From contig JAABQB010000014.1 of assembly GCA_011391695.1 (NCBI GenBank), forward strand, positions 1 to 59,780: a DNA stretch of 59,780 bases, written 5' to 3'. The notes beneath the pieces were generated by a model. It worked only from the letters and a program-made list of their open reading frames with translations. It made no database searches and was not told the DNA's origin. Of the stretch, positions 8,366 through 43,216 are shown piece after piece; positions within the stretch are counted from its first letter, which is position 1, and the number at the start of each line of letters is the position of its first letter. The stretch is from Desulfobacteraceae bacterium (GTDB taxonomy: Bacteria; Desulfobacterota; Desulfobacteria; Desulfobacterales; RPRI01). Made by a program: the position numbers and the translations under genes.

Positions 8366-8390
8366 AAAAGCAATTGATACAGGATACTAA

Positions 8391-8657
8391 ATGACGGAAC
8401 AAGAGATAATAAAACTGACGAATCAGGTTTTTGAAGAATCGTTTGAAATAGAAAAAGAAAAATTAAAGCCGGAGATGAATATTTTCCAGGATCTCGGACT
8501 TGACAGTCTTGATATAGTCGACCTCGTGGTTGCCCTGCAGAATAAGTTCGGCGTTAAAATAAGAAATGACGACAGGATCAAGAACATAAGGACGCTGGGG
8601 GACATATACAAATTTGTTCTCTCATTGAAAGCGGAAGGAGCGTCCCCTTCACTATAG
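8391..8657 (+). CDS. Acyl carrier protein
   Basis: The 88-residue acidic protein has the phosphopantetheine site LGLDSLDIVDL, with the modified Ser after Asp, and the usual four-helix ACP length. It carries the growing chain for the cluster enzymes. It lies 8 bp before the PlsC-type acyltransferase, which may take its acyl group. It is one of three ACPs in the block, which suggests separate starter, elongation and transfer roles. No phosphopantetheinyl transferase is present in the window. Confidence 0.93.
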   Translation: MTEQEIIKLTNQVFEESFEIEKEKLKPEMNIFQDLGLDSLDIVDLVVALQNKFGVKIRNDDRIKNIRTLGDIYKFVLSLKAEGASPSL

Positions 8658-8665
8658 CGGCAGAA

Positions 8666-10517: not shown

Positions 10518-10527
10518 GGAAAAAACA

Positions 10528-14618: not shown

Positions 14619-14640
14619 CGAGTTAAAGTAACCAGAAACC

Positions 14641-16957: not shown

Positions 16958-16969
16958 AAAGGGACTTTT

Positions 16970-18241: not shown

Positions 18242-19615
18242 ATGAAGGTTTTGCTGATCGGAGCGAATATCGCCAGCACACCATATTATGTATACCCGCT
18301 GGGACTCAGCATGGTTGCCACGGCACTCAGAAAAGCCGGACATATTGTAACACAGTTCGACTTTTTAAGAAACGACATGTCCCTTGAGGCTTTAGTCAAC
18401 GAATTAAGATCGTTTAAACCTGACATTATAGGCATCTCCATGAGGAACATAGATAATGTCAACCTTATGAATGAGCAAAGATATATTGATGCAGTTAAAG
18501 ATATCGTTAAAAATATTCGCGATGTCACAAATTCGCCGGTTGTATTGGGGGGGTCGGCTTTTTCAATAATGCCTGAAACAATTTTAAGTGAAGTCGGCGC
18601 CGACTACGGAATCATCGGAGAAGGCGAATCTCTGATGCTCGAACTTGTCAATAAAGCCGCTCTTGGAAAGTTTCCCGAAAAAGGGTGTATCCGGTCTTCA
18701 AACTACATGGACGGGGAAGACATCCCTTCGGCCTGCTATGACCCGGACATCATGCAGTTTTATCTTAAAAGCGGGAGTATCGCCTCATTACAGACAAAAC
18801 GCGGCTGCACCCACAAATGTATTTACTGTTCATATCCTGTTTTGGAAGGCTCTGCGATTCGCCCGAGAAATCCCGGAGCAGTGGTTGATGATATTGAAAT
18901 TCTGATAAATGATCACAATGCAAAGTATATCTTTTTTACCGATTCGGTATTTAACGACGATGAAGAATCTTATCTTGAAGTAGTGACAGAAATGAAAAAG
19001 AGGAACATTTATATACCATGGACCGCCTTTTTCAAGCCTGAAGGATTAAATGACAAACATGTTGAGCTTATGAAAGAGACCGGGCTCAAAGGCGTTGAAA
19101 TAGGCGCTGACGCCTCTACGGATACAACCCTGATAAAACTGGGAAAAAGGTTCAGATTTAAAGATATCGTCGCCTGCAATGATTTGTTCGCAGGGCATGG
19201 CATTGCAACTGCACATTTTTTTATGTTTGGATGCCCCGGTGAAACAAAAGAGACAGTGATACAGGGGCTTGAAAACATAAAAAATCTCAGGAAAACCGTT
19301 TCTTTTGTTTTCATGGGCATACGGATTCTGCCTGACACCGTTCTGCATAGTATAGCAATAAGGGAAGGCATTATTTCCCAGGAAAATACACTGCTTGAAT
19401 CGATTTATTATATTGCTCCAGGACTGGAAAAAGAGTGGCTGGAAAAAACCCTGACAGAAGGATTCTCTGGAATCAGGCATTGCGTTTTCCCTCCGGATGC
19501 CATGGATGAAAGTCTTCGGTTTCTGCACAAACTCGGATATTCCGGCTCCCTGTGGGATATGCTTATACCGGCTGATAAAAAATCCCGCAGGCAAAGAGTC
19601 CATGGAACAAACTGA
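18242..19615 (+). CDS. B12-binding-domain radical SAM enzyme, second copy
   Basis: This 457-residue protein has an N-terminal cobalamin-binding-like domain (YPLGLSMVATALRKAGH, DIIGISMRNID, PVVLGGSAFS, GIIGEGE) and a radical SAM core with Cys189, Cys193 and Cys196 (CTHKCIYC). The typical later strands TDSVFNDD and GVEIGADAS are seen. It follows the first copy without any gap and differs from it strongly, so the pair is not a recent duplication. A two-step or two-site modification of the acyl chain is a reasonable inference. The start of the next gene overlaps its end. Confidence 0.87.
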   Translation: MKVLLIGANIASTPYYVYPLGLSMVATALRKAGHIVTQFDFLRNDMSLEALVNELRSFKPDIIGISMRNIDNVNLMNEQRYIDAVKDIVKNIRDVTNSPVVLGGSAFSIMPETILSEVGADYGIIGEGESLMLELVNKAALGKFPEKGCIRSSNYMDGEDIPSACYDPDIMQFYLKSGSIASLQTKRGCTHKCIYCSYPVLEGSAIRPRNPGAVVDDIEILINDHNAKYIFFTDSVFNDDEESYLEVVTEMKKRNIYIPWTAFFKPEGLNDKHVELMKETGLKGVEIGADASTDTTLIKLGKRFRFKDIVACNDLFAGHGIATAHFFMFGCPGETKETVIQGLENIKNLRKTVSFVFMGIRILPDTVLHSIAIREGIISQENTLLESIYYIAPGLEKEWLEKTLTEGFSGIRHCVFPPDAMDESLRFLHKLGYSGSLWDMLIPADKKSRRQRVHGTN

Positions 19616-20345
19616 CCAGATAAACAGTGACAGCATCTGGTGTGTTATTCCTGTTTATAACAACGGGAACACCGTAAAATCAATTGCCGACGGATGCCGT
19701 TTATACTTAAAAAACATTCTCGTAATTGATGACGGCAGTACGGACATTGATCTTTTAAGGCTGTTTCGGGATACCGACATAAAAGTTATCCGCCATGAAA
19801 GAAACCTGGGTAAAGGCAGGGCGATAATGACTGCCGTGAAATTCATAATGGAAAACGGCGGTCTTTTCATGATAACCATAGATGCGGACGGACAACATTA
19901 CCCCGAAGATATAAAAAAATTCATCCCCCTCCTGTCAGGTGATGATTCTTCGATTATTATAGGTTGCAGAAATTTTGAAACAAATAATGTTCCGTCATCA
20001 AGCAGGTTCGGAAGAAAATTTGCCAATTTCTGGCTGCGCGTTGAAACCGGAATTTCAATCGGAGACTGCCAGAGCGGATTCAGGGCATATCCTGTAAAAT
20101 ACCTCTCTATGATAAAGATGTATGGATCACATTACGACTTTGAGGCGGAAATACTTGCAAGGGGAGCATGGGCAGGGCTTAAATTAAAAACGGTCCCAAT
20201 AGAAGTCTGGTATCCCGAGCCGCAATCAAGGGTGTCATCCTTTAAACCATTTCTGGATAATTTCCGTATTTCAGTCATGCACGCAAGGCTTGTCGGAAGG
20301 CGACTTCTGCAAAAAACATGGGGTGTTGACCATGCAAACGGGTAG
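19602..20345 (+). CDS. Family 2 glycosyltransferase (DPM/polyprenyl-phosphate type)
   Basis: ATG 19602 is taken as start since it overlaps the radical SAM stop by 14 bp and the GT2 fold (CVIPVYNNGNTV) begins 14 residues later. The 247-residue protein has ILVIDDGSTD, the metal-binding TIDADGQHYPED and the DCQSGFRAYP motif, typical of GT2 enzymes that use a lipid phosphate acceptor. It should add a sugar to a lipid at the cytoplasmic face. With the LpxL-like acyltransferase just downstream it repeats the GT2-plus-acyltransferase pair of aryl-polyene loci. Confidence 0.86.
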   Translation: MEQTDQINSDSIWCVIPVYNNGNTVKSIADGCRLYLKNILVIDDGSTDIDLLRLFRDTDIKVIRHERNLGKGRAIMTAVKFIMENGGLFMITIDADGQHYPEDIKKFIPLLSGDDSSIIIGCRNFETNNVPSSSRFGRKFANFWLRVETGISIGDCQSGFRAYPVKYLSMIKMYGSHYDFEAEILARGAWAGLKLKTVPIEVWYPEPQSRVSSFKPFLDNFRISVMHARLVGRRLLQKTWGVDHANG

Positions 20346-21243
20346 TAGGGCTGATAAAACCGGTCCACGGAAAAGAGGGAACAGGACCGGTTTCTGGTTT
20401 TTTGAAATGTTTATTCGCATATCCGGGCTTCGCGGCGCATATGGCTTTTTATACTTTGTCTGCCTCTACTATCTGATTTTTGACAGGCATGCCGTATCAT
20501 CTGCCTTGCCTTATATTAACAGAAGGTTCCCGGATAGTGGTATGCTGACAAGAAATTTTCATGCATACAGGCTTTTTATAAGCCAGGGAAGACAGCTTGT
20601 TGACCGGCTGGCCGCTATTGTTTCAAAAAAACAGCTTTTTGATATAAAGCTAAATGGTTATGATAAACTCATGGCGCTCTTTCAAAAGTCAGACAAGGGA
20701 GTCATACTGCTCACATCCCATTTCGGAAACTGGCAGATCGCTCTTACCTCTCTGAACAAACTGGGGAAAAGAGTATATCTTCTGATGCGTGAAGAGGAAA
20801 ATCCGGCTGTAAAGGAGTCCTTAAATGTTGGGAATGAAAAAGGCGATATAAGGATCATATCCCCTGAGCAGGCATTCGGGGGAGTTATTGAAATAATGAA
20901 TGTTCTTAAGAAAGGACATGTTGTTTCTATAATGGGAGACAGGAACTATGGCGCAAAGGCGTTTAAAATTGATTTTCTTGGTGAAAAAGCCTTTTTCCCG
21001 TTCAGTGCCTTTGCCATAGCTGCGGCAGCAGAATGCCCTGTTGTGATTCTGATTGCTGCAAAAGACTCTGCCTATAGCTATACTGTTGATGTAACGAACA
21101 TTCTTGTTCCCTGCTGTAAAAGCAGCGGGAAAAGAAATGAACAGCTTATTCCGTGGGTGCAGGAATATGCAAATATTCTTGAAAAATATATTCAAAAGTA
21201 CCCATATCAGTGTTTTCTTTTTCATGATATATGGAAAAACTGA
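20332..21243 (+). CDS. LpxL/HtrB-like lipid acyltransferase
   Basis: The start ATG 20332 overlaps the glycosyltransferase stop. The 303-residue product has one N-terminal membrane anchor, the SHFGNWQ motif with the catalytic His, and GDRNYGAKAFKIDFLG followed by FPFSAFAIA, the pattern of the lipid A late acyltransferases. It should transfer an acyl group from ACP to a lipid-linked sugar or similar acceptor. The preceding glycosyltransferase probably makes that acceptor. A palindromic element and the next ACP gene follow. Confidence 0.85.
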   Translation: MQTGSRADKTGPRKRGNRTGFWFFEMFIRISGLRGAYGFLYFVCLYYLIFDRHAVSSALPYINRRFPDSGMLTRNFHAYRLFISQGRQLVDRLAAIVSKKQLFDIKLNGYDKLMALFQKSDKGVILLTSHFGNWQIALTSLNKLGKRVYLLMREEENPAVKESLNVGNEKGDIRIISPEQAFGGVIEIMNVLKKGHVVSIMGDRNYGAKAFKIDFLGEKAFFPFSAFAIAAAAECPVVILIAAKDSAYSYTVDVTNILVPCCKSSGKRNEQLIPWVQEYANILEKYIQKYPYQCFLFHDIWKN

Positions 21244-21286
21244 AAATAATTATGAGCTCGAAAAAAGTCGGAATTCAGACGGCAAA

Positions 21287-21396
21287 ATAAAAAGATCATT
21301 ATGCAAGGCGCACGAATCTTGAGGAATGAAGCGTACTTTTCGTACGCTGCAATGACGAAAGATGAAGTGCAACACAGCAGAATGGCTTTTTATGAA
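21287..21396. repeat. Imperfect palindromic intergenic element, about 110 bp
   Basis: The ends ATAAAAAGATCATTATGC and the reverse complement of the right end (ATAAAAAGCCATTCTGCTG) are similar. The centre holds the perfect hairpin AGCGTAC-TTTTC-GTACGCT (21330-21348). There is no coding frame. It resembles dispersed palindromic units seen in desulfobacterial genomes and lies just before an ACP gene with a strong ribosome site (AAGGAG). Confidence 0.65.
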
Positions 21397-21426
21397 GCCG
21401 GCATAAATAATTAAGGAGATTGGTGG

Positions 21427-21708
21427 ATGGAAAGTAAGGAAAAAAATCTGGCTGAAATCAGGAAACTCCTCAAAGAGCTGCTGGTTGAAAATTTATCTCT
21501 TGAAGATATCAGGCCGGAAGATATTAAAGATGATGAAGTACTTTTCGGAGACGGGTTGGGTCTTGACTCTCTGGATGCCGTTGAAATTGTTGTGCTGCTC
21601 CAGAGAAACTTCGGTCTTGAAGTAAAGGATATGAAGCAGGGGAGGGAGATTTTTTATTCTGTGGATACCCTTGCAAGATACATATATGTAAATAAAAAAA
21701 CAACATGA
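21427..21708 (+). CDS. Acyl carrier protein, second copy
   Basis: The 93-residue acidic protein has the phosphopantetheine site GLGLDSLDAVEIV and ACP-like helices. AAGGAG stands 8 bp before the ATG. It directly precedes the KS and KS-like pair at 21740-24017, and by analogy with aryl-polyene and type II polyketide systems it is the likely elongation ACP for that pair. Its sequence differs clearly from the other two ACPs. Confidence 0.93.
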   Translation: MESKEKNLAEIRKLLKELLVENLSLEDIRPEDIKDDEVLFGDGLGLDSLDAVEIVVLLQRNFGLEVKDMKQGREIFYSVDTLARYIYVNKKTT

Positions 21709-21739
21709 CCTTTTTGCTTAAATCCATATTATATTTTTT

Positions 21740-22903
21740 ATGAAGGCAGTAATATCAGGAATAGGAATAATTTCTGCTGCGGGTTTTAATCTTGAACAAA
21801 ACCTTGAGGCGTTAAAAAACGGAAAAAGGAATGGGGGACCTGTCTCTGCTTTTTCCACTATTCTGCCCTATCCGGTATTTGAGGTAAATTCTCTGCCTGA
21901 AAAATGTGCTGAAGAAGGGATGCGCACCCGAAGCCTTGCTTTTACAGCCTTGAATGAGGCTTTGGACGACGCGGGATTACAGGCTCCTCTTTCCGGATTC
22001 AGAACCGGAGTTTGTATCGGGACGACGGTTGCAAGTCAGCTTAATGACATTTCTTTTTACACCGCATTCAGAAAATCCGGAAACGCTGACTTAAAACCTG
22101 TTAACCTCTTTTTAAAAGGCAATCTTGCAGAATCCGTGGCATGCTCTCTCAATGCTTCAGGTCCGTCCGTTACAGTTGTAAATGCCTGCTCCTCTGGAAC
22201 CGATGCCATCGGGATAGCTCTTTCATGGTTAAAAACAGGTTTATGCGATATCGCCATAGCCGGAGGCGCCGATGAAATAAACCGCGTTCCATTATGCGGT
22301 TTTGGCTCCCTTGGGATATTGAGCAACTCTCTTTGTGCTCCATTTGACAAAAACAGATCCGGCCTGAACCTGGGTGAAGGAGCGGGGATTCTTATTATTG
22401 AAAGGGAGGATTTTTATATCAAAAGATGCGGAAAACCATCCCTGTATCTTTCAGGTTACGGATCATTTGCCGATGCATACCATCTCACAGCCCCGAGACC
22501 TGACGGAACAGGTCTTGAGTCAGCAATCAGAAAGGCGTTATCCGATGCGGGAGTTTTACAGGCGGACATCTGTTTCGTAAACGCCCACGGAACAGGCACC
22601 CTTGATAACGACAAGGTTGAAGGATCCGTTCTTTCAAGAGTTTTCGGCAATAAAATAAAATTTCTTTCTACAAAGGGTTATACAGGGCACACTCTTGGCG
22701 GCGCGGGGGGTATTGAGGCAGTATACACTGCAGCCGCTCTGAAAGAGGGATGGATACCGTCAAATGCCGGGTTTGAATGTAAAGATGATAATATACCCAT
22801 AACTCCTGTTACGGAGAATACCGATATAAAAGGCTCATTTGCGTTGTCGACCTCTCTTGCATTTGGCGGAAACAACTCGGCAATAGTTATTGAAAGAGCA
22901 TAG
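21740..22903 (+). CDS. Beta-ketoacyl-ACP synthase, third complete copy
   Basis: The 387-residue ketosynthase carries Cys150 (NACSSGT), His283 (NAHGTGT) and His317 (GYTGHT), plus the DKNRSGLNLGEGAG loop. It should condense malonyl-ACP with the growing chain. It is paired with the inactive KS-like protein at 22974, in the order KS then partner seen in type II polyketide and aryl-polyene loci. No good ribosome site is visible before ATG 21740, in an AT-rich leader. Confidence 0.91.
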   Translation: MKAVISGIGIISAAGFNLEQNLEALKNGKRNGGPVSAFSTILPYPVFEVNSLPEKCAEEGMRTRSLAFTALNEALDDAGLQAPLSGFRTGVCIGTTVASQLNDISFYTAFRKSGNADLKPVNLFLKGNLAESVACSLNASGPSVTVVNACSSGTDAIGIALSWLKTGLCDIAIAGGADEINRVPLCGFGSLGILSNSLCAPFDKNRSGLNLGEGAGILIIEREDFYIKRCGKPSLYLSGYGSFADAYHLTAPRPDGTGLESAIRKALSDAGVLQADICFVNAHGTGTLDNDKVEGSVLSRVFGNKIKFLSTKGYTGHTLGGAGGIEAVYTAAALKEGWIPSNAGFECKDDNIPITPVTENTDIKGSFALSTSLAFGGNNSAIVIERA

Positions 22904-22916
22904 GAATTTTTATGAG

Positions 22917-22950
22917 GGGTCAAGGATTCAAGGGATCAAGGTTTCGAGTG
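22917..22950 (+). repeat. Short degenerate direct repeats between KS and partner
   Basis: The spacer holds repeated GGxTCAAGG-type units (GGTCAAGGATTC, AAGGGATCAAGG). Similar purine-rich spacers occur near 14631-14675 and 52249-52270. They look like intergenic filler typical of this genome and not a regulatory site. Confidence 0.4.
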
Positions 22951-22973
22951 AATAGAAGGGCGAAGAACCTTAT

Positions 22974-24017
22974 ATGTATATTTCCGGAATAGGAATTGTT
23001 TTTACACGCGGGCGGGGAATCGATTCTTTCGAAAAAGCCCTGAAAGAGGGATGGATAGAGCCTTCAAGGACAGGCTCGATTCCGGCATACCGGGTCGGTC
23101 AGGAAACCCTGACGGACGCCTCTTTGACAAAAAAAATGAGACGTGCCGACAGGTTCAGCAGAATGGCGGTTCTTTCCGCTGTTGATGCATGCAGGGACAG
23201 CGGCATTAACGTAAACGAAAGGGCAGAACTCGGGATTGTTCTTGCAACGGCTTTCGGACCCCATGCGACAACTTTTAGCTTTATAGACGATATACTTGAT
23301 TACGGAGACACAAATGTATCCCCGACAAAATTTTCAAACTCGGTTCACAATGCTGCGGCATCATATGTATCTGCCATCCTCGAAAACCGGGGACCGACAG
23401 TTACTATTACACAGTTTAAGTTTGCGTTTCAAAATGCCCTTATCCTTGCAGGTTCATGGATAGCTGAAGGACGGTGTGATCATGTTCTGTGCGGATGCGC
23501 TGATGAACTTGGCACGGTAATGGAGTACGCATGTAAAATGAAACTGAATATTGCAAAAGAAGGAAAAATCAATCCGTTTGCTTTTTCGGATACTCCGGTT
23601 TCTGTTCCCGGCGAAGGATCGGTATTTATTATGCTGTCTAAAGAAAAAGGCCTCAATAATTATGGAAAAGCTACTGAAACATCCTTTCCCAGGAACATAA
23701 CAGGCAACCCCGATCTTTTTGTAATTGATGCTGATGGAATGTCCGCAAACGAAACGGGCTATAGGGATATAATCGATTATGGTTCATTGATAGCCGGGTA
23801 TTCGCCTGTTTTCGGAAGCATGCTGACAGGAAGCGCATTCAACTTTGCAGCTGCCGCACTTATGTTAAAAAATCAGATTGCTTACAACTGCGTTTTTCAG
23901 GATAATCCCTTTGGGGCAAAATTGTGTGATGAAACTTCGGCAAAAAATCTTAATGAGATATACTGCATTAAAATCTGCAGACCGGAAATAAAAACCATTA
24001 TAAAACTGCAAAAATAA
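22974..24017 (+). CDS. Ketosynthase-like partner (chain-length-factor type), inactive
   Basis: The 347-residue protein keeps the thiolase fold of a ketosynthase N-terminal half (YISGIGIVF, NSVHNAAASYVSAI, GPTVTIT), but the nucleophile position holds Lys149 (TQFKFAF) and the two catalytic His motifs are absent from a short C-terminal half. That fits a chain-length factor such as ApeC, which dimerises with the active KS and shapes the tunnel. It follows the third KS after a 70-bp gap. A second, shorter partner (16295) belongs to the other KS. Confidence 0.72.
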   Translation: MYISGIGIVFTRGRGIDSFEKALKEGWIEPSRTGSIPAYRVGQETLTDASLTKKMRRADRFSRMAVLSAVDACRDSGINVNERAELGIVLATAFGPHATTFSFIDDILDYGDTNVSPTKFSNSVHNAAASYVSAILENRGPTVTITQFKFAFQNALILAGSWIAEGRCDHVLCGCADELGTVMEYACKMKLNIAKEGKINPFAFSDTPVSVPGEGSVFIMLSKEKGLNNYGKATETSFPRNITGNPDLFVIDADGMSANETGYRDIIDYGSLIAGYSPVFGSMLTGSAFNFAAAALMLKNQIAYNCVFQDNPFGAKLCDETSAKNLNEIYCIKICRPEIKTIIKLQK

Positions 24018-24027
24018 GGAGTCATCC

Positions 24028-24666
24028 ATGGGAAAAAATCAAAAAGTTATCATAAGCCTTATTATAATGTTTGTTTTAGCCTTAGCCTGTTCCACCCTGT
24101 ATGCTGGAAGCCTTACCGGTAAAAAATATTATACGATGACAAATATCTGGTACGAAAATCCAAACGACATCTTGTCCACAAATTACCACAGGGGAGTCAT
24201 TTTACCTTTCGGGACAAAGATCGGCATTCACAGTATCAAAAACAGGAGAATTAGGTTTACTCCTGACGGAAGCGGTCAGATCTTCACCCTTATTAATGTA
24301 AAGACAAGTACAATTACTACCGAAGAACTTTTTAACAAGTATTTTTCCACAGAGCCTGTTGGAATAGGATTAGGCGAATATTCCGAGGTAGCCGAAGCTG
24401 ACCGTGAAAACATTAAAAACGGTACGATAGCTATTGGAATGAGCAAGAAGGCGGTTCTTATGGCGTACGGATATCCGCCAACCCACAAGACTCCTCTTTT
24501 AACCAGTGATATCTGGTATTACTGGTATGCACGTCTTCACAAGGTTAATGTGTATTTCAAAGATGACAAGGTTTTTAAAATAGAAAAAATAGAACCGGCA
24601 GAGTTCCCTGGATTTACGAAATCAAGCGTCGATTCTGCAGGCGGCATTAAAAAAAAGGCCAAATAG
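24028..24666 (+). CDS. Periplasmic protein with SmpA/BamE-like C-terminal domain
   Basis: The 212-residue protein has an N-terminal signal sequence (VIISLIIMFVLALACS). The ALAC sequence is a poor lipobox, so it could be a lipoprotein or be cut after LYAG. The C-terminal segment GMSKKAVLMAYGYP... WYYWYA... VYFKDDKVFKI is the fold signature of SmpA/OmlA/BamE-type domains. The first half has no match I recognise. It precedes an outer-membrane barrel gene by 4 bp. AAGGAG lies before the ATG. Confidence 0.6.
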   Translation: MGKNQKVIISLIIMFVLALACSTLYAGSLTGKKYYTMTNIWYENPNDILSTNYHRGVILPFGTKIGIHSIKNRRIRFTPDGSGQIFTLINVKTSTITTEELFNKYFSTEPVGIGLGEYSEVAEADRENIKNGTIAIGMSKKAVLMAYGYPPTHKTPLLTSDIWYYWYARLHKVNVYFKDDKVFKIEKIEPAEFPGFTKSSVDSAGGIKKKAK

Positions 24667-24669
24667 TAT

Positions 24670-25518
24670 ATGAAGAATAATTGGACTTGTGCCATAATAG
24701 TCACATTTGTTCTATTTTGTTATACCTTTTCCTTTGCACAAACTGAAAGCATTAAAGATACTGCAGTTGATACAAAAGAGAACGAAATCATTTCTAAACT
24801 GCACGCCCTGGAAATAGGACCGGAAATATCGTTTATTGAATATAGAGAACCTGCTGTTATGAAAGAAGAAGGAACGATGATCGGAATTGGTGCGTCATAT
24901 ACTTATCACAAAGGCGTTATGATTAAGATTGCGGGCAGATACAGTTATGGACAGGTAGACTACAAAAATTCAGGAACCATTAATAATATAGATGATAACA
25001 TATTCGAAATCAGAATGCTTGGCGGCCACGACTTTAACATCTCGAATTCACTTTCTATCACGCCATTCATAGGCATTGGCTACAGATATTTGAAAGATGA
25101 TGCGGCAGGAAGAATCAGTTCCACAGGCCATTACGGATACTTAAGAGAATCCAATTATTACTACAGTCCTATTGGTATCGAAGCGGTAAATGTTTTTGAT
25201 AAAGGTTGGTCTGCCGGTGCAATTCTGGAATATGATTATTTTTGGAAAGGGAAGCAAAAAAGCCATTTAAGCGATATTGACCCCGGCTATAATGACATTT
25301 CAAATGATCAGAACGGTGGTTATTGCCTACGAGGGTCTATAAAAATCAAGAAACAAACAGACAGGGTGTTTTTTGTAATAGAACCATTCATAACATATTG
25401 GAATATCGATAAGTCGGACGTTCAATACCAGACATATTATGGAGTTGTTATCGGAACCGGATGGGAACCCAAAAATGAATCTACAGAAATCGGTGTAAAG
25501 TTTATGATAGGATTTTAA
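24670..25518 (+). CDS. Outer-membrane beta-barrel protein, small
   Basis: The 282-residue product has a signal peptide (CAIIVTFVLFCYTFSFAQT) and then alternating hydrophobic and polar strands rich in Tyr, Gly and Trp (AGRYSYGQVDY, GIGYRYLKDD, LEYDYFWKG), ending VKFMIGF with a C-terminal Phe, as in outer-membrane barrels assembled by the BAM complex. The size suits 8 to 12 strands. It is the only barrel in the lipid block and may present or anchor the product. I cannot name the family. Confidence 0.65.
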   Translation: MKNNWTCAIIVTFVLFCYTFSFAQTESIKDTAVDTKENEIISKLHALEIGPEISFIEYREPAVMKEEGTMIGIGASYTYHKGVMIKIAGRYSYGQVDYKNSGTINNIDDNIFEIRMLGGHDFNISNSLSITPFIGIGYRYLKDDAAGRISSTGHYGYLRESNYYYSPIGIEAVNVFDKGWSAGAILEYDYFWKGKQKSHLSDIDPGYNDISNDQNGGYCLRGSIKIKKQTDRVFFVIEPFITYWNIDKSDVQYQTYYGVVIGTGWEPKNESTEIGVKFMIGF

Positions 25519-27282: not shown

Positions 27283-28464
27283 ATGCGCCTGTCATGCGAT
27301 GTTCTTGTCGCCGGAGGAGGAGTTGCCGGCATATCGGCAGCCGTGCGCGCTGCGCGCGAAGGGGCCCGTACGATACTTGCGGAAACAAATGGTTTTCCCG
27401 GCGGAACCGCCGTAAATTGCATGCACCGTTATATCTGCGGATTATATTCTTCCGGCCCTCTACCTCCGGAAGGCACTTTGAACGGAGGAATCGCCGATGA
27501 AATATGCGCGAAACTCAAAAAACTTGCGCCCGGAACAAAACCGGTTAAGATGGGCAAAGTCCTTCTTTTCCCTTTTACAACGGGAGACCTTATTAGTGTT
27601 TTAAGGTCATTAAGCGAAAAGCAGGCAGAACTCGACCTTTTATATGAAACGGAAGTTGTGTCGGTCGAAGTGCAAAACGGCAGGATAAGAAATGTTTTTG
27701 CACGGAATAATACCGGCGAAATAGAAATATCGACACGGGCGGTAATTGATTGCAGCGGATACGGGGCGGTAATCCGCTTGAGTGGAGCGGCTTACGATAT
27801 TTCTTCGCCGGAAGAACGCCAACTCGCAGGTTTCTGTTTCAAAATAAAAGGGATTAAAGATCCCGGAGAGATGGCACCCGTGAGCGTTCCTTATCACATA
27901 TCGCAGGCTGTTGCTGAAAAGAGAATTCCATCTTACCTGAAATATGCCAGGTTTTATAAGAGCGATGTTGACCATGAAGGATATTGCCTTATAAGTATCC
28001 CTCCGGGCAACAGCCCTGAAAGAATCCGTGAAGCAAAAAAATATGCCGCAGCGGTTCATGATATCCTGGCCGATTCGATAGATTCTTTCAGAAATTCCCG
28101 TATAACGGAAATGTCCAGCGTAATCTCAGAACGCGAAGGTCTCCGCATGAAAGGGGAATATACGCTGACTGAAAAAGATGTGCTTTCAGGACGCAAATTT
28201 CACGACGGAGTTGTAAAAAGCGCTTGGCCTATAGAGCTGTGGGATCAGAAGAAAGGCCCCTCTTGCCGGTATCTCGATGATGGCGCTTATTACGAAATTC
28301 CGCTGCGCTGTCTTAAGTCACGGAACATAAAGAATCTTTACTGTGCCGGACGATGTATATCGGCATCCCCTGAAGCTCTCGGATCAACAAGGGTCATGGG
28401 AACCTGCATCTCCCTCGGGGAACAGGCCGGACTTGCTGCAGCAAAGGATCTCGATTTGTTATAA
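27283..28464 (+). CDS. FAD-dependent oxidoreductase (PF12831/FixC-like)
   Basis: The 393-residue protein opens with a Rossmann FAD site (DVLVAGGGVAGISAAVRAA), a partner acidic residue (LAET) and FPGGTAVNCMHRYICG. It ends with NLYCAGRCISASPEALGSTRVMGTCISLGEQAG, the C-terminal FAD motif of the FAD_oxidored group. It is soluble in appearance. It may carry out a redox step on the acyl chain or supply electrons to another enzyme. It sits between the acyltransferase (3 bp) and the third radical SAM gene (10 bp). Confidence 0.8.
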   Translation: MRLSCDVLVAGGGVAGISAAVRAAREGARTILAETNGFPGGTAVNCMHRYICGLYSSGPLPPEGTLNGGIADEICAKLKKLAPGTKPVKMGKVLLFPFTTGDLISVLRSLSEKQAELDLLYETEVVSVEVQNGRIRNVFARNNTGEIEISTRAVIDCSGYGAVIRLSGAAYDISSPEERQLAGFCFKIKGIKDPGEMAPVSVPYHISQAVAEKRIPSYLKYARFYKSDVDHEGYCLISIPPGNSPERIREAKKYAAAVHDILADSIDSFRNSRITEMSSVISEREGLRMKGEYTLTEKDVLSGRKFHDGVVKSAWPIELWDQKKGPSCRYLDDGAYYEIPLRCLKSRNIKNLYCAGRCISASPEALGSTRVMGTCISLGEQAGLAAAKDLDLL

Positions 28465-28474
28465 GGATAAGCTT

Positions 28475-29908
28475 ATGAAGATATTGCTGGTTAAACCACA
28501 CACTGAACTTCTGGTTGCAAAGCGGCTGCAGGAAGGTTTTCTTCATCTTGAGCCACTTGAGCTTGAAATAGTTGCCGGTGGGGTGCCGGACGAAGATGAT
28601 GTTTTAATTCTTGATCTCAGCGTTGAACAGGATCCGATCAGAACTTTCAGAAATACTTTATCGGAATATTCTCCTGATATGGCCGGTTTTTCGGGATACA
28701 GCACGAATGTCGATGCTGTCAAAAATTTTGCAAAGATGGTTAAGGATTTTAATCCCGGCATAGTTACTGTCGTTGGAGGAGTCCATGCAACTCTTCTTCC
28801 CAAGGATTACGCGGTTAAACAGATAGATATAATTGTCCGGGGTGAAGGCGGAACCGTAGTGCGGGAACTTGTACGCAGGTTCAAAAATGGAGAATCCCTC
28901 AATTATGAAGACCGCGCCCTTTCTCCGCAAGACCCGTTGTTTAATGAAAAAGCTGAACTTTCCCCGCCTGTATATCCTTCAGCAGTCGAGATACCCCGTC
29001 CAAGAAGAGATCTTGTGAACAGATCGAAATACTTTTGCGTCTGGACTTCAAGCCCTACCGGAAGGCTTGACACAATGTTCCCGAGAGTAGCAAGTATGCG
29101 TACTTCAATCGGGTGCGCTTTTTCCTGTTCTTTCTGTGTTATACCGCATCTTATGCACGGAAGGTACCTGCAGAGAAGCCCTGAAGATGTTGTAGATGAG
29201 ATAGAACGTATTCATGAGGAGCACATCTATTTTGTAGATGATGAGATGTTTCTGAACCCGGCAAGAGTTACAAAAATAGCAGAGCTTCTTATTGAGCGCG
29301 GAATCAAAAAGAAATACATAAGCTGGGCGAGAAGCGACACCATAGCTAAATATCCTGAAGTCTTTAACATATGGAAAAAAGCCGGCCTCGATCTGGTCTA
29401 TGTCGGCCTCGAATCCATGGACAAATCGCGCCTTGATGAATACTCAAAGAAAACAAATGTTGAAACAAACAGAAAAGCCGTGGATCTTTTACGGAAATGG
29501 GGAATAACCCTTCATGCCGCCTTCATTGTCCATCCTGATTTTACAGTCGAAGATTTCAGGCGGCTTGAAAAGGAAGTTGCCAATGTATGCCCGGCAGAAG
29601 TAACCTTTACGGTTCTCTCCCCTTCTCCCGGAACAAAATTCTGGCATGACAACAGGCACAGGTTCATATGTGATCCCTACCGCTTTTATGACTGCATGCA
29701 CTCTGTGCTTCCGACCCGGCTTCCTTTAAAACGCTTTTATCAGCATTTTGGAAGATTAAATAGCCTTGCATTGCGCGCAAACCCTCTGCGGGTCAACAAA
29801 ATCAAAGTTCCATTAAAGGATCTGTACAGGGCCATTTCGGGAGGCACAAAATATATCTTCTCTCTTTATAATATCCACAAGGATTACTTGCCGGAGAAAA
29901 GCAGGTGA
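28475..29908 (+). CDS. B12-binding-domain radical SAM enzyme, third copy
   Basis: ATG 28475 with AAGGAT upstream is the start; an earlier in-frame ATG lies inside the FAD gene. The 477-residue protein has a B12-binding-like domain (KILLVKPHT, DMAGFSGYSTN, VTVVGGVHATLLP, IIVRGEGG) and the radical SAM Cys214, Cys218 and Cys221 (CAFSCSFC), followed by IYFVDDEMF and LVYVGLES strands. It belongs to the BchE/HpnJ-like broad class. It is the third such enzyme in the block and the most distant in position, coupled by GTGA overlap to the AMP-ligase. Confidence 0.88.
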   Translation: MKILLVKPHTELLVAKRLQEGFLHLEPLELEIVAGGVPDEDDVLILDLSVEQDPIRTFRNTLSEYSPDMAGFSGYSTNVDAVKNFAKMVKDFNPGIVTVVGGVHATLLPKDYAVKQIDIIVRGEGGTVVRELVRRFKNGESLNYEDRALSPQDPLFNEKAELSPPVYPSAVEIPRPRRDLVNRSKYFCVWTSSPTGRLDTMFPRVASMRTSIGCAFSCSFCVIPHLMHGRYLQRSPEDVVDEIERIHEEHIYFVDDEMFLNPARVTKIAELLIERGIKKKYISWARSDTIAKYPEVFNIWKKAGLDLVYVGLESMDKSRLDEYSKKTNVETNRKAVDLLRKWGITLHAAFIVHPDFTVEDFRRLEKEVANVCPAEVTFTVLSPSPGTKFWHDNRHRFICDPYRFYDCMHSVLPTRLPLKRFYQHFGRLNSLALRANPLRVNKIKVPLKDLYRAISGGTKYIFSLYNIHKDYLPEKSR

Positions 29909-31338
29909 ACATATTTGAAACCATAAAAAAAGAGACAGCCGGCTACGGCGATAAACCCGCGGTTATCGAAGGTGATCAGAGCATATCATACCGCGAACTT
30001 ATTGATGCCGCTGAAAACCTGGCTTCCCGGCTGAAAAATAACCGGATTAAACCGGGAAACAGGATCGCCCTGCTCTGCAACGACTCTATCGATTATATAA
30101 TTATAAGCCTTGCAATACTTGCTGCAAAAGCGGCGGTTGTTCCAGTTTCATCTTCTCTTTCATGGGATGAAACGGATGCTGTTTTAGACAGGATAGATGT
30201 CAATTGTCTCATTTTTGACAAGCCGTCTTATTCCGGGCCGGATGCCGAGCCTTTATTTTCAGGGTTTAACGGCGGCGGGGAATTTTTCCTGCTCAACAGA
30301 AAAGCAAAGGATCTTCTTCCGGAAGAATATTATGCCCTGAATCCTGCATTCATAAGATTCTCTTCAGGCACAACCGGGGCAAGCAAAGGCGTTCTCCTGT
30401 CGCACGAATCGATAATTGAAAGAACAGACGCCGCGGACATGGCACTTCGCATGACCCCTGAAGATGTCGTCATATGGGTTCTTTCCATGAGCTATCATTT
30501 TGTTGTAACCATTCTCCTTTTCTTAAGAAGGGCTTCAACAATAGTTCTTTGCGGAAATGATTTTCCTGAATCATTTGTTGAGAATATTAAAAACAGGAAG
30601 GGAACATTCACATACGCATCTCCCTTTCATTATCATCTCCTTTCCAATTCGGGCGATATTCCGTCGGATATTTTCTCCGGTGTCCGTATTGCAGTTTCTA
30701 CGGCGATGAAATTGCCGCAATCAACGGCCGGTGAATTTTACGACAAGTTCGGGCTTGAGCTTTCCGAGGCTTACGGAATAATTGAAGTCGGGCTTCCATT
30801 TATCAATCTTTCGGGAAATCCCGCAAAAAGAGGTTCCGCGGGAAAGGTTCTGCCCGATTATGATATAAAAATCGAAAACCGGGATAAAAATGGCGTCGGT
30901 GAGCTGCATGTTAAGGGGAAAGGAATGTTCGATGCCTATTTCTCACCGTGGCAAAGCAGAAAAGAGGCCATTAATGAAGGCTGGTTTAACACGGGAGATC
31001 TCGGCAGAATTGATGAAGACGGGTTTCTTTATATTTTCGGCAGGGACAAAAACGTCATTAATTTTGCCGGCATGAAAATATTTCCGGAAGACGTGGAATC
31101 CGTTTTGAACCGGCATCCGGCCGTCAAAGAATCTCTCGTTTACGGTCTTCCCCATCCGCGGTATGGTGAACTGCCCTGTGCGAAGGTTGTTTTTAAAGAG
31201 GAAACAAGTCCTGATTTTGACACGAATGAAATCCGCAGATATTGCTATCCTCTTCTTGCATCATACAAAGTTCCGAAAGAAATTAATCCTGTAAAAACAC
31301 TTGAAAAAACGGCGAGCGGAAAAATCAAGAGATGGTAA
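29905..31338 (+). CDS. Acyl-AMP ligase (ApeH-like)
   Basis: The 477-residue enzyme of the ANL superfamily has the P-loop FSSGTTGASKG, the YGIIEVG motif, the GWFNTGDLG motif and a C-terminal TASGKIKRW with the catalytic Lys473. It activates a carboxylic acid as acyl-AMP and loads CoA or ACP. In aryl-polyene clusters such a ligase loads the starter acid; here the starter is unknown because no aromatic ammonia lyase is present. The start GTG overlaps the radical SAM stop. Confidence 0.86.
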   Translation: MNIFETIKKETAGYGDKPAVIEGDQSISYRELIDAAENLASRLKNNRIKPGNRIALLCNDSIDYIIISLAILAAKAAVVPVSSSLSWDETDAVLDRIDVNCLIFDKPSYSGPDAEPLFSGFNGGGEFFLLNRKAKDLLPEEYYALNPAFIRFSSGTTGASKGVLLSHESIIERTDAADMALRMTPEDVVIWVLSMSYHFVVTILLFLRRASTIVLCGNDFPESFVENIKNRKGTFTYASPFHYHLLSNSGDIPSDIFSGVRIAVSTAMKLPQSTAGEFYDKFGLELSEAYGIIEVGLPFINLSGNPAKRGSAGKVLPDYDIKIENRDKNGVGELHVKGKGMFDAYFSPWQSRKEAINEGWFNTGDLGRIDEDGFLYIFGRDKNVINFAGMKIFPEDVESVLNRHPAVKESLVYGLPHPRYGELPCAKVVFKEETSPDFDTNEIRRYCYPLLASYKVPKEINPVKTLEKTASGKIKRW

Positions 31339-31393: not shown

Positions 31394-32356
31394 ATGACAA
31401 TAGGCACAGATCATAATTTCTTTAGGTTCATCACACCTGCATGGCTTTGGAAATCAACCTCTCCGGATCACCGTTCACTCAGGATAGGGATTCCTCGAAT
31501 GTTCTTTTACTATATCTATCCCGGTCTGTGGGAGACATTCTTCAGCGAACTGGGAATGGAACCAATTGTTTCCAGGCCGTCCACCATCAAGACAGTTGAG
31601 AAAGCTTCTCAAATATCCGAAACAGAACACTGTCTGCCGAACAAACTTTTTGACGCACACCTTGCCGAACTTGTCGGGAAGGTGGACATGGTATTTGTGC
31701 CCCGTGTCCTGTCCACCATAAAGGGTCATCTCTCCTGTCCAAAGTTTGGCCCGCTTCCCGATGCGGCCAGGGCGGATATCGCCCGGGAAACGAAAGTTCT
31801 GTCTATTGAACTTGACGAAAGCAGGCGTCCCTTATCCGAGAGCCTGATGCTTCTTGGGAAACAGTTAAAGAGTCAAAAGAGTCAAATCCGGTCAGCAATT
31901 AACAGTTCATTAAGAGCCATGGAATTGGCAAAGAATCAGCCGGTTCGCTATCTGAGAAAAAAGGAAGGGCTCCGTTTCTTGCTTATCGGACACCCCTATG
32001 TCATTCACGACAATTTTATCGCGGGACCGATTCTGCAGAAGTTGGAAAAGATGGAATGTGAAGTTGAACTGATCTCTTTCGCGAAAGAAGCTCCGGTAAA
32101 GAGTTATATTCTGTGGAGCACAGCCAATTTGATTTATCACTCGATGAAGACCCTCTCCCGTGAAGAATATGATGGGGTTATTCAGCTTACGGTATTTAAT
32201 TGCGGATGTGATTCCATGATGATTGATACGTATCGAAGTCTGATGAAAGAAAAGAATATCCCATTCATGTATCTTATGGTCGATGAGCATTTAGCCCAGT
32301 CCGGTATGGATACACGGGTGGAGGCGTTTGTTGACTCGCTCGGGTGGCGTCCATGA
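31394..32356 (+). CDS. DUF2229/HgdA-type subunit of 2-hydroxyacyl-CoA dehydratase-like complex
   Basis: The 320-residue protein has the DUF2229 (COG3580) pattern: RIGIPRMFFYYIYPGLWETFF near residue 27, a conserved EHCLPNKLFDAH with Cys, HLSCPKFGP, and a C-terminal NCGCDSMM... DEHLAQSGMDTRVEAF. The Cys residues probably bind a 4Fe-4S or double-cubane cluster. Relatives receive electrons from an ATP-driven activase for difficult reductions or dehydrations. The gene starts after a 55-bp gap in the block and overlaps the next by ATGA. The function here is inferred. Confidence 0.75.
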   Translation: MTIGTDHNFFRFITPAWLWKSTSPDHRSLRIGIPRMFFYYIYPGLWETFFSELGMEPIVSRPSTIKTVEKASQISETEHCLPNKLFDAHLAELVGKVDMVFVPRVLSTIKGHLSCPKFGPLPDAARADIARETKVLSIELDESRRPLSESLMLLGKQLKSQKSQIRSAINSSLRAMELAKNQPVRYLRKKEGLRFLLIGHPYVIHDNFIAGPILQKLEKMECEVELISFAKEAPVKSYILWSTANLIYHSMKTLSREEYDGVIQLTVFNCGCDSMMIDTYRSLMKEKNIPFMYLMVDEHLAQSGMDTRVEAFVDSLGWRP

Positions 32357-33456
32357 CATATATGGCTATCCCCAACATCGGCAACTACACCATCGCCCTC
32401 GCCACAGCGGTCGAATCTCTCGGGATTAAGGCCTGGGCTTCGACCGCCACAACGCCTGAAGCCCTGAAGTTAGGCATCGAGGCGGCCCCGGAGTCTGTCT
32501 GTCTGCCTCTAAAGGCCCATCTTGGCCACTTTATTGAGGCGGACAGGGCCGGCGTAGAATATGCTTTCATGATCAACAGTGTCGGGACATGCAGACTTAG
32601 ATATTATCGCCACATGATAGATCAGATACTCAAGGATCTGGGGCTGAAAATAAAGATCTTCGGTCTCGGCTTCGACGGGTTCAAACCGCCGATCGTACGC
32701 CATTTTGCTCCCGGACCAATCACGTTTATCAAACCCTTATTCCATACGGTCTTAAAGATCAAAGTGATTGATGAACTGGAGGTGGCCGCCTGGCGGACAA
32801 GGCCCATCGAAATAACCCCGGGAGACACCACGCGGATCATGAATAAGTTGCTGGTGGAACTCAGTGAGTCAAAAACCATGGCCGAGACCCGGTCCATCCG
32901 CAAAAAGGTTGCAGGGAGTTTCGCGGATATTCCAGTGGATAAAGAGAAGCAACCGCTCAAGGTGGGACTGGTCGGCGAAATATCTTTTTTGCGGGACAAG
33001 TGTTTGAATAAGAACATTGAATATATACTGGGCAGCCAGGGGATTGAGCTGAAAAACTTCTTTTTGCTTGGAGAAGAGTTAGAGAACATAACGCGAATCA
33101 TATTCCTTAACCAGAGTCGGAGAAAGTCCCTGTTCCGAATCACGGACCGATACTTGCAGAATTCGGTTGGAGGACATGCTCTCGATTCCGTTGCAAACTC
33201 GATCCATTGTGCGGATGAAGGGTATGACGGCATGATTCACCTGTGTCCTTCCGGATGCATGCCTGAAGTCAGCGTACGACCGATATTAAAGCGTGTCAGC
33301 AAAGACAAGGATATTCCCATACTGGAAATGTCTTATGACGAACATACCTGTGGCGTCGGGATTGCGACCCGCTTAGAAGCCTTTGCCGATGTCCTCATGG
33401 AAAGAAGAAAATGCGGCGCCGCCGCCTTTCGCAGGGAGAAAGCCCGCCGTGGATAA
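32353..33456 (+). CDS. COG3581/HgdB-type subunit of the same complex
   Basis: ATG 32353 overlapping the previous stop is the likely start, giving 367 residues. The protein has ESVCLPLKAHLGHF, NSVGTCRLRYY, HLCPSGCMPEVSVRP and DEHTCGVGIATRLEAF. These Cys-containing motifs parallel those of the gene upstream (both end with DEH... TR-EAF), so the two look like paralogous halves of a heterodimer as in 2-hydroxyglutaryl-CoA dehydratase or double-cubane proteins. It should hold an Fe-S cluster reduced by the activase domain of the downstream protein. Confidence 0.75.
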   Translation: MTYMAIPNIGNYTIALATAVESLGIKAWASTATTPEALKLGIEAAPESVCLPLKAHLGHFIEADRAGVEYAFMINSVGTCRLRYYRHMIDQILKDLGLKIKIFGLGFDGFKPPIVRHFAPGPITFIKPLFHTVLKIKVIDELEVAAWRTRPIEITPGDTTRIMNKLLVELSESKTMAETRSIRKKVAGSFADIPVDKEKQPLKVGLVGEISFLRDKCLNKNIEYILGSQGIELKNFFLLGEELENITRIIFLNQSRRKSLFRITDRYLQNSVGGHALDSVANSIHCADEGYDGMIHLCPSGCMPEVSVRPILKRVSKDKDIPILEMSYDEHTCGVGIATRLEAFADVLMERRKCGAAAFRREKARRG

Positions 33457-33460: not shown

Positions 33461-36136
33461 ATGAATAACACCTGTTACATTGGGATTGATGTCGGTTCCA
33501 TCAGCACAAATTGCGTCGTCATTACGCCGGAGGGTGAAGTCCTTTCTGAAATTTACATGCGGGGGGACGGCCATCCGATCGAGTCGGTGCAGCAGTGTCT
33601 GACCCAACTCACGGCACAGTTGCCTGACACGTATTGCGTCAAGGGTGTTTGCACAACAGGAAGCGGAAGAATTCTTGCAGGCGCGGTCGTCGGCGCGGAT
33701 GTGATTAAAAACGAAATATCGGCCCATGCCCGTGCGACGATACATCTCTATCCTGATGTGCGCACAATATTCGAAATCGGCGGACAGGATAGTAAAGTCA
33801 CGATTGTCAGGGATGGAGCTATCGTCGATTTCTCAATGAACCTGCTTTGCGCAGCGGGCACAGGAAGCTTTCTCGATTCACAGGCCAGAAGATTGAATAT
33901 TACGATTGAAGAATTGAGCACCAGGGCGATTACATCTGAAAATCCCACGGATATAGCCGGCCGCTGTACGGTTTTCGCGGAGTCGGACATGATTCACAAA
34001 CAGCAGGGCGGGCATGAACAGAAAGACATCATGATGGGATTGTGTCACGCCCTTGTCCGAAACTATCTTTCAAATGTTTGCAATGGGAAGGAGATCAAAC
34101 CGCCAATTGTTCTTCAGGGCGGAGTGAGCGCAAACAAGGGAATCTGCCGGGCTTTCAAAGAAGCGCTTCAGTGCGATATCGTGGTTCCACCCTACAATAT
34201 GGTCATGGGGGCCTATGGGGCCGCCCTGATTGCATCAAAATCCGGCATCGAAAAGACAAAATACCGGGGAAAAGAAGCCTCCAGACACACCATTATTACA
34301 AAAGGTTTCGAATGCGGGGATTGTCCCAATTCTTGTGAAATTATCGAGGTCCTCGATGCGGATGAAGTCATCGGAAGAACCGGCGGGCGGTGCGGTAAAT
34401 GGGAGGGAATGACGGGACCGCGTGAAGCCCTCAGGGGAACAGTCCCGATTGTCCCTGTTTCCGGAACTTCCGCAGGCGGTCTAACGGAATATGATGCCTG
34501 CCGACTGGTGGACAATGCCCCTGATCTTATTCAAATAGGCGTTTCCAAAAAAAAAGTCGTAAATATCATGCAGGATGACGGATTTCCTTCCGAATGCGAC
34601 GTTATAGTCATGGGTGCAGGCATAGCAGGCCTGACAGCCGCGGCCCTCCTCTCGAGATCGGGACTTAAGGTTGTGCTGCTTGAGAAGCAGTCAAGACCGG
34701 GCGGATACTTCATGGGATTTAAAAGAAAAGGGTTCACTTTTGACAGTTCCATTCAATGGTTAAACGGGTTCAATGCTGACGGATTTGTTGGCAGGATATT
34801 CGAATACATAGGATCGGATTATCCGAAATGCAAAATGTCGGATCGTATCCGCAGGTACAAGGGTGAATCCTTCGACTACATTCTTACCAGCAACCCTTAT
34901 GAACTCCGCGACCGGCTGATAAAAGATTTTCCCGCCGAAACGGATGGTATAAAGAGGTTTTTTGAGGACTGCAGAAAAATTGGCGTCCACTTCGACAAAT
35001 TAAACGGATGCCTGCGCGCGCACCAAACCATGCCTGAAATTGAAAGAATGATCTTTGGAATTAAAATGCTCGGCTGGGCTGTTCCGGTGTGGAAATATTT
35101 GCGAATTTCTGCTGAAAAAGGCCTGGACAGATACTTCAAAGACAATGAGATAAAAAAAATATTCTGCAGTGAAGAGAAGTTCATGTCCATAATCATGCCG
35201 TTCGCGTGGGTTTTCGCCAACGATCTGCTCTTTCCGCCGGAGGGTGGAGCTGAAGTTTTTGTAAAATGGCTGTGCGGAAAAATTCATAATTCGTCATCGC
35301 AGATATTTTTAAACCATAACGTTAAAGAGGTGCTGGTGAAAAACAAAATGGCCTCCGGAGTACGTCTTTCCGACGGACGGGTCATTAATTCCAAATATGT
35401 TATTGCCGCATGTGACTTAGAAAATCTATATGAGAGGATGCTTCCCGAAGGCTCGGTGCCGGATAAACTGATCCGCCGTCAAAGAGAAGCCGATCTCTAT
35501 TCTTCCAGTGTCACAGTATTTATTGGCCTTGATCTTGATGAGTCCGCCCTCGGATTGCGTGGAGAATTGATATACCTGACTGCCGATGATATTCCGAGGA
35601 AAGATCATTCAGGAGGAGACCCTTATAACAATGCTCTTGTTATTCAGTCTCCTTCGGCAAGAGACAAATTGCTTGCCCCCGAAGGTAAATCGACAATGAC
35701 CATACATTGTTCGGCCCGCATAGATTATGGTGATTTATGGAAGACGGATAAAAACATGGAGCGCGGAACAAGATACAGGGAATTCAAGCAAGAATATGCG
35801 GATATCCTGATCGAAAGAGTTGAAAAGGGCCTCGGAATAAATATAAAAAAGCATATCGAAGTGCTTGAAATTGCGACACCGGTCACATACTGGCGTTATA
35901 CCGGAAATCGCAACGGAAGCACTATGGGAGCAAGTCCAACTGATAAAAATATCAGAAACCAGCTTGCTCATTACAAAACACCGGTTAAGAATTTATTTCT
36001 GGGAGGACACTGGGCGGAATACGGAGGCGGTATGCCGATGGCCGTGAAGGCGGCTTCAAACGCGAGCCTGATGGTTCTGGAAAAATCAAACAAGGAAGAA
36101 TTTAAAAAACTGCGGGATGTCATGGATTTCAAATAA
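33461..36136 (+). CDS. Fusion of BcrD/HgdC-type activase ATPase and CrtI-like FAD oxidoreductase
   Basis: ATG 33461, 4 bp after the upstream stop, is preferred to 33383. The product has 891 residues. Residues 5-285 are an ASKHA-fold activase: YIGIDVGSISTN phosphate loop, FEIGGQDSK, and Cys130 (LCAAGTG) and Cys169 (GRCTVFAES), which match the pair that bridges the dimer 4Fe-4S cluster of HgdC. A Cys-rich tail (CGDCPNSC, GGRCGKW; 285-314) follows. From about 380, VIVMGAGIAGLTAAALL starts a full CrtI-like FAD domain with GGYFMGFKRKGFTFDSSIQW and a C-terminal LFLGGHWAEYGGGMPMAV. The frame is unbroken through the junction. It implies ATP-driven electron delivery joined to a flavin redox step. Confidence 0.88.
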   Translation: MNNTCYIGIDVGSISTNCVVITPEGEVLSEIYMRGDGHPIESVQQCLTQLTAQLPDTYCVKGVCTTGSGRILAGAVVGADVIKNEISAHARATIHLYPDVRTIFEIGGQDSKVTIVRDGAIVDFSMNLLCAAGTGSFLDSQARRLNITIEELSTRAITSENPTDIAGRCTVFAESDMIHKQQGGHEQKDIMMGLCHALVRNYLSNVCNGKEIKPPIVLQGGVSANKGICRAFKEALQCDIVVPPYNMVMGAYGAALIASKSGIEKTKYRGKEASRHTIITKGFECGDCPNSCEIIEVLDADEVIGRTGGRCGKWEGMTGPREALRGTVPIVPVSGTSAGGLTEYDACRLVDNAPDLIQIGVSKKKVVNIMQDDGFPSECDVIVMGAGIAGLTAAALLSRSGLKVVLLEKQSRPGGYFMGFKRKGFTFDSSIQWLNGFNADGFVGRIFEYIGSDYPKCKMSDRIRRYKGESFDYILTSNPYELRDRLIKDFPAETDGIKRFFEDCRKIGVHFDKLNGCLRAHQTMPEIERMIFGIKMLGWAVPVWKYLRISAEKGLDRYFKDNEIKKIFCSEEKFMSIIMPFAWVFANDLLFPPEGGAEVFVKWLCGKIHNSSSQIFLNHNVKEVLVKNKMASGVRLSDGRVINSKYVIAACDLENLYERMLPEGSVPDKLIRRQREADLYSSSVTVFIGLDLDESALGLRGELIYLTADDIPRKDHSGGDPYNNALVIQSPSARDKLLAPEGKSTMTIHCSARIDYGDLWKTDKNMERGTRYREFKQEYADILIERVEKGLGINIKKHIEVLEIATPVTYWRYTGNRNGSTMGASPTDKNIRNQLAHYKTPVKNLFLGGHWAEYGGGMPMAVKAASNASLMVLEKSNKEEFKKLRDVMDFK

Positions 36137-36208: not shown

Positions 36209-36646
36209 ATGGAAAACCTGACTGAAGGATATCCGGTAGTCATCGAGATTCCTGTCGCATGGGGAGAGATGGACGCCTTTCAGCACATCAACAATATTGT
36301 TTATTTCAGATATTTTGAAAGTGCAAGGATCGCTTATTTTGAGAAGCTGAACCTTATGGATATGATGAACAGGACGGGCATAGGTCCTATTCTTGCCTCA
36401 ACGTCATGCAAATTCAGAATTCCTTTGAAATATCCGGATAAAGTCCTTGCCGGAGCCAGGGTATCCTGTATCGAGGAAGACCGGTTTATCATGGATTATA
36501 TTGTTGTCAGCGACAAACATAAAAAAATAGCTGCAGAGGGTGATGGCCTGATAGTGGCCTTCAACTACAGTGAGAACAGGAAGACTTTAATGCCTGAAGA
36601 ACTGAGGCAGCGCATACTAGACATTGAACCGAAACTGCCTCGTTAA
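36209..36646 (+). CDS. 4HBT-family acyl-CoA/ACP thioesterase
   Basis: The 145-residue hot-dog protein has EIPVAWGEMDAFQHINNIVYFRYFESARI, with the conserved Asp and the HxNNxxY segment of YbgC/FadM-type thioesterases. It probably releases or proof-reads acyl chains. It is the last gene of the 32-kb block, 72 bp after the fusion gene, with AGGGGGAT before the ATG. It differs from the ApeK-like thioesterase at 14641. The next gene is convergent and no clear terminator is seen in the 118-bp gap. Confidence 0.86.
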   Translation: MENLTEGYPVVIEIPVAWGEMDAFQHINNIVYFRYFESARIAYFEKLNLMDMMNRTGIGPILASTSCKFRIPLKYPDKVLAGARVSCIEEDRFIMDYIVVSDKHKKIAAEGDGLIVAFNYSENRKTLMPEELRQRILDIEPKLPR

Positions 36647-43212: not shown

Positions 43213-43216
43213 ACCG

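Follow-up and report, generated by a model that had tools for sequence, protein, structure and literature searches.

Does the stop-free frame that joins an activase ATPase to a CrtI-like flavoprotein in the genome of a Desulfobacteraceae bacterium encode one enzyme, or have two neighbouring genes run together? The frame occupies positions 33461–36136 (+ strand, 891 codons) of the window, by which we mean the whole stretch of 59,780 nucleotides of contig JAABQB010000014.1 that was analysed. Residues 7–258 of the frame match the BcrAD_BadFG family (PF01869; 164.8 bits against a cut-off of 31.5) as well as the curated profile TIGR00241 (185.1 against 125.4), and residues 388–869 match the Amino_oxidase family (PF01593; 73.5 against 19.8). 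The unbroken 891-residue activase and flavoprotein frame described in an earlier, sequence-only reading of this DNA is thus borne out, with no stop along it and a profile match to each half. Since the activase half (ACT) and the flavoprotein half (CRTI) are both well conserved in relatives, the frame is not a chance open frame, and a chance opening at the join was likewise ruled out. ACT comes last in a trio of genes, D2229a–D2229b–ACT. Taking the evidence as a whole, we regard it as probable that adjacent ACT and CRTI genes have been run together, that ACT powers D2229a and D2229b in a lipid pathway, and that CRTI is separate.

The protein was searched against about 492 distinct genomes: 291 from the class, 10 from the genus, one of which is outside the former set, 17 from a related family and 200 from the class to which a Nitrospirota-type genome belongs. 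A peptide-pattern scan of the species collection yielded six loci. ACT ends at a stop of its own, at residue 314–367, in 25 of the 26 activase genomes, and in the window alone it runs on. No fusion to CRTI was found in the 25 other ACT genomes or in the ten other genomes with CRTI, one of which (G101) was judged only as far as the end of its contig, about 65 bases upstream. The sequence-only reading had proposed an ACT–CRTI fusion enzyme; with the homologues separate and the fusion seen only here, a result which that reading had itself named as refuting, a conserved enzyme of this kind is not supported, and bench effort on a chimera found in none of the related genomes is spared.

The origin of the single frame lies at the join itself. 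In G123, a genome of the same genus whose operon is identical in gene order to that of the window, the tract that is nine A's long in the window contains two additional bases, ACT ends in TAA and the ATG of CRTI follows five bases later. This ATG is retained in the window at 34568, and relatives with CRTI in other locations also begin at the matching ATG. ACT and CRTI read as one frame owing to the 2 nt by which the window falls short of G123 in this A-rich tract. Nine is the longest A/T run length in the window, which has four such runs in total. As ACT is separate in all but one of its genomes and no other CRTI genome carries the fusion, the latter is a one-genome indel or a homopolymer miscount. 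The AGAAGG stretch that precedes the CRTI ATG in G123 has been lost from the window, which would fit a true change at the join and provides a weak hint in that direction.

Although the fusion is not conserved, the neighbourhood of ACT and CRTI exceeds chance. The genomes found with both genes are those of the window, G123, G291, G051, G178 and G743; the two genes are adjacent in five of these six and probably one gene apart in G291. The arrangement is tandem in the genus of the window and convergent, with the genes facing each other on opposite strands, in G051, G178 and G743. In G291, ACT is 91% identical to that of the window, stops at the matching place and is followed by a B12-radical-SAM gene, and the contig that carries CRTI begins with a stretch that overlaps this same gene (456 nt, 96% identity); ACT, radical-SAM and CRTI are therefore likely to follow one another in this order. 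The two contig ends of G291 (L069 and L055) carry overlapping versions of a single B12-radical-SAM gene with a divergence of about 4%, pointing to a strain mixture in this assembly. As nearly every genome found with both ACT and CRTI has them side by side, some coupling between the two is likely.

This adjacency, together with the unbroken frame and the loss of AGAAGG, which would also fit single-chain translation, could be taken to mean that ACT and CRTI form one enzyme in this lineage, in which ATP-driven electrons reach the flavin. We consider such a functional fusion very unlikely, however, given that it occurs in one of 26 activase genomes and in no other CRTI genome, that the two genes occupy opposite strands in the three convergent genomes, that five genomes have CRTI without any trio, and that a likely partner pair for the activase is encoded immediately upstream of it. 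The genomes with CRTI and no trio are G279, G261, G192, G101 and G265 (no D2229a match at E 1e-20), and a dependence of CRTI on the trio was rejected on their account. The trio is present without CRTI in G670, G671, G672 and G533; CRTI was not found in G173 and G278 either, both of which are less complete genomes, and its absence from G749 or G824 is provisional, as only the best three or four candidates per genome were scored. Joined genes are also seen inside the trio: in G247, D2229a and D2229b share one open frame of 768 codons (L100:4873–7176).

CRTI belongs to the lipid cluster and is separate from the trio. It carries the glycine motif GAGIAGL at frame residue 385, and this N-terminal motif, with the PF01593 score above cut-off, places it as a predicted member of the FAD amine-oxidase superfamily. 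The nearest named family is carotenoid isomerase (TIGR02730; 118.1 against a cut-off of 586.9), then come CrtD and CrtI (TIGR02733, 105.1 against 549.7; TIGR02734, 96.1 against 238.1), so that CRTI scores well under the cut-off of all three. It lies directly 3′ of the AMP-binding ligase in G279 and G261 only, both without the trio, and 5.7 kb downstream of the ligase on the same contig in G192. Between the ligase and CRTI of G192 there is another B12-radical-SAM protein, which has 50% identity to B12rSAM3 (L041:6079–7605).

The surroundings of the frame in the window are listed in Table 1. Between 4.7 and 36.6 kb the window holds in total three B12-radical-SAM enzymes, two CrtI-like proteins, a ligase, ketosynthases, a KR, a dehydratase, acyltransferases, LolA and MMPL and, judged solely by Pfam domain content, this would be a ladderane-like FASII cluster. 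As listed, FADox and B12rSAM3 overlap; relatives of B12rSAM3 align from about residue 44, and the start of this gene is therefore probably further downstream than annotated. Two further proteins of the window are without a Pfam or NCBIfam match: one of 446 residues within the lipid operon (25939–27279), which is also found beside FADox in G123, G749 and G824, and one of 1025 residues (36765–39842), which is 89% identical in G123 and also occurs in G261. At 42151–46972, two Fe-S CCG-domain proteins flank a FAD-linked oxidase and are followed by citrate synthase, a set that we take to resemble a glycolate/lactate-type dehydrogenase.

Table 1. Position of the trio, CRTI and the lipid-cluster genes in the window.
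Feature	Position	Strand	Remarks
Rest of lipid cluster	4763..25518	+	KR, second CrtI-like protein, four ketosynthase-like proteins, acyltransferases, SPASM protein, LolA, MMPL, ApeI/FabA-like dehydratase, 4HBT, two B12-radical-SAM enzymes, glycosyltransferase, outer-membrane barrel
FADox, FAD_oxidored flavoprotein, same operon	27283..28464	+	
B12rSAM3, B12-binding radical-SAM enzyme	28343..29908	+	true start may be near 28472
AMP-binding acyl/aryl-CoA ligase	29905..31338	+	
D2229a, DUF2229 protein with HGD-D-like C-terminus	31394..32356	+	Cys80, Cys115 and Cys270 invariant
D2229b, partner of D2229a	32344..33456	+	Cys53, Cys83 and Cys305 invariant
ACT, activase ATPase	33461..34558	+	window residues 1–366; end of homologues at about residue 360–367
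Nine-A run at the ACT–CRTI join	34547..34555	+	window 2 nt shorter here than same-genus G123
CRTI, CrtI/CrtISO-like FAD flavoprotein	34568..36136	+	own conserved ATG at 34568
4HBT-type thioesterase, after CRTI	36209..36646	+	

Cys130 and Cys169 of ACT, to which the sequence-only reading had drawn attention, are invariant in the 26 ACT proteins and are present in all 24 other activases compared; by analogy they should hold a 4Fe-4S cluster in the ACT dimer. The Cys-rich tail noted in the same reading is likewise present, in the form of Cys285, Cys288, Cys292 and Cys311, but does not set ACT apart, as 15 of the 24 other activases have all four of these cysteines aligned and 22 have at least three. 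We therefore rejected the tail as the mark of a special ACT.

The two genes preceding ACT present the candidate partners of the activase. D2229a reaches the DUF2229 profile (PF09989; 124.3 against a cut-off of 29.4) and D2229b falls just below it (26.9), while neither reaches the cut-off of the HGD-D profile (PF06050; 25.0 and 25.3, respectively, against 28.4). Comparison with the PDB, using profiles built from 15 and 16 relatives for the two proteins, gave as best matches the C-terminal parts of the double-cubane protein (7yyl/6eno) and of HadC (3o3m), over a span of only about 65 residues and with E values of 1.5e-5 to 0.004 for D2229a and 0.006 to 0.016 for D2229b. AlphaFold2 models, obtained from alignments of five and four close sequences, had a mean pLDDT of 34.8 for D2229b and 45.4 for D2229a and were too poor for a fold search. 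The three invariant cysteines of D2229a are found in 20 of 20 chains and the three of D2229b in 24 of 24, counted after omission of six D2229a and two D2229b of the 26 genomes as partial or interrupted, and in either subunit two of them are 30–35 residues apart and one lies in the C-terminal part. The same layout is found in BzdO of benzoyl-CoA reductase, for which the available text of PMC11971306 describes a 4Fe-4S cluster held by Cys95, Cys128 and Cys380. The profile matches and the three-cysteine layout point to D2229a and D2229b as the likely acceptor of the electrons of ACT.

The trio recurs beside lipid-cluster genes in two lineages. Neighbourhoods were assessed by tblastn at 1e-8 within 7 kb of ACT wherever the sequence extends that far, the flanks being uneven as contigs end. 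By this rule 18 of the 26 trio loci have ketosynthase, B12-radical-SAM or CrtI-like matches nearby, against none of 26 control activases, although one control has a KR-like match. Twenty of the controls were hand-picked from 39 genomes that have an activase match but lack a trio or CRTI relative, and six were added, namely three Nitrospirota-type large activases and three other activases of the window's own genome. The corresponding Fisher p value of about 7e-8 serves only as a guide because the trio loci are related. The association extends to divergent trios whose D2229a and D2229b are 25–31% identical to those of the window, and in the four divergent trios examined for Pfam domains the gene after ACT is LolA-like.

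Core cluster genes are absent within the available flank of the remaining eight trio loci. Four of the eight have less than 4 kb on at least one side. G278, G672, G825 and G173 are on short contigs, and even so G173 has ApeI, MMPL and one more cluster gene. G670, G671 and G854 have no core cluster gene despite about 7 kb on both sides, and G533 has none over several kb. These last four loci would suit a trio of general function, unrelated to lipid, whose proximity to the cluster reflects shared ancestry or block transfer; so would G743, in which only CRTI and the trio lie together, away from the remaining cluster and between HflX-like and PolA genes. Such an explanation is unlikely in view of the contrast between trio loci and controls, which includes the divergent trios.

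It is also conceivable that the trio does not act on lipid but reductively activates the B12-radical-SAM enzymes that the cluster encodes. B12-radical-SAM enzymes require low-potential electrons, their genes lie near many trio loci, and G670–G672, where the trio is apart from the cluster, retain B12rSAM3 elsewhere in the genome (65–66%). Against this proposal, G279, G261, G192 and G265 have B12rSAM3 without the trio, and G533, G726, G854 and G825 have the trio without a B12rSAM3 match at E 1e-60. As D2229a and D2229b moreover resemble a catalytic pair, we judge the activator role to be quite unlikely.

Our preferred reading is that ACT drives D2229a and D2229b in the lipid pathway. The ACT dimer, with a 4Fe-4S cluster between Cys130 and Cys169, would spend ATP on driving electrons, for which ferredoxin is the probable source, one at a time into the D2229a/D2229b pair. 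By comparison with the BCR/HAD radical-enzyme family, three cysteines in each subunit would bind the pair's own clusters. The pair may then act on an intermediate of the ladderane-like pathway that is bound to CoA or ACP, either by reduction or by radical dehydration. Against this reading, three genomes of the same genus have the pathway genes without the trio. CRTI would be a separate flavoprotein of this pathway, perhaps acting near the same step, and is not expected to accept the electrons of ACT. The ATP-driven chemistry on a conjugated lipid that the sequence-only reading had assigned to a fused CrtI enzyme does not survive in that form, the fusion being confined to one of 26 genomes, but low-potential chemistry of this kind in a conjugated-lipid pathway is plausible through D2229a and D2229b, which lie upstream of ACT in a trio that recurs beside lipid genes. 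In its fullest form the proposal is a tentative one: the trio may constitute a split ATP-driven BCR-related radical reductase that is a tailoring module of ladderane-like clusters in Desulfobacteraceae relatives and Thermodesulfovibrionia and acts on a lipid intermediate bound to CoA or ACP by way of a Birch-type or ketyl-radical step, with the CrtI-like flavoprotein coupled to it in some lineages and joined in this genome. If a BCR/HAD-type ATP-driven unit does operate in lipid biosynthesis, extremely low-potential radical chemistry would serve to build membrane or pigment lipids.

Activases, the FAD amine-oxidase superfamily and ladderane-like clusters are each already known, and a link between such an activase and these clusters was found in no paper, nor was any report found of an activase–phytoene desaturase fusion, in a searched literature that omits most subscription journals. 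The ladderane-like FASII clusters of Kuenenia and Desulfotalea are described in the available text of Rattray et al. (2009; PMC2649909) as containing several divergent ketosynthases, SAM-radical enzymes, two phytoene-dehydrogenase-like proteins, a CoA-ligase-like protein and a Mmp-like membrane protein; the window cluster has matching gene content, compared by description only, and the word activase is absent from that available text. Clusters of this type have been reported in Desulfobacterota (PMC2649909, PMC9902471) and, according to the accessible part of PMC9902471, are widespread in anaerobes, with their product outside anammox bacteria unknown. The trio provides a small testable gene set for this question.

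CRTI shares the FAD amine-oxidase superfamily with the CrtI, CrtD and CrtISO flavoproteins but differs from them in scoring below every named-family cut-off listed and in sitting in a FASII-type cluster. The closest parallel to the trio in a single chain is a group of large activase/DUF2229 proteins of about 1300–1500 aa, present in several genomes including that of the window (contig C94), which resemble the trio in combining an activase with a Cys tail and D2229a-like, in some also D2229b-like, stretches. These proteins carry two activase domains in front on one chain, whereas the trio is three genes in the order a–b–ACT with one activase, and none of those examined lay beside a lipid cluster. 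With the BCR/HAD family (BzdNO with BzdPQ, HadBC with HadI, and the double-cubane protein) the trio has in common an ATPase activase with two invariant bridging cysteines and a partner made of two subunits, each of which has three invariant cysteines. It differs in its DUF2229-type catalytic subunits, whose resemblance to HGD-D is only C-terminal, in the CxxCxxxC...C tail of its activase, and in its setting, which is a lipid cluster for the trio and aromatic or amino-acid breakdown for the BCR/HAD family.
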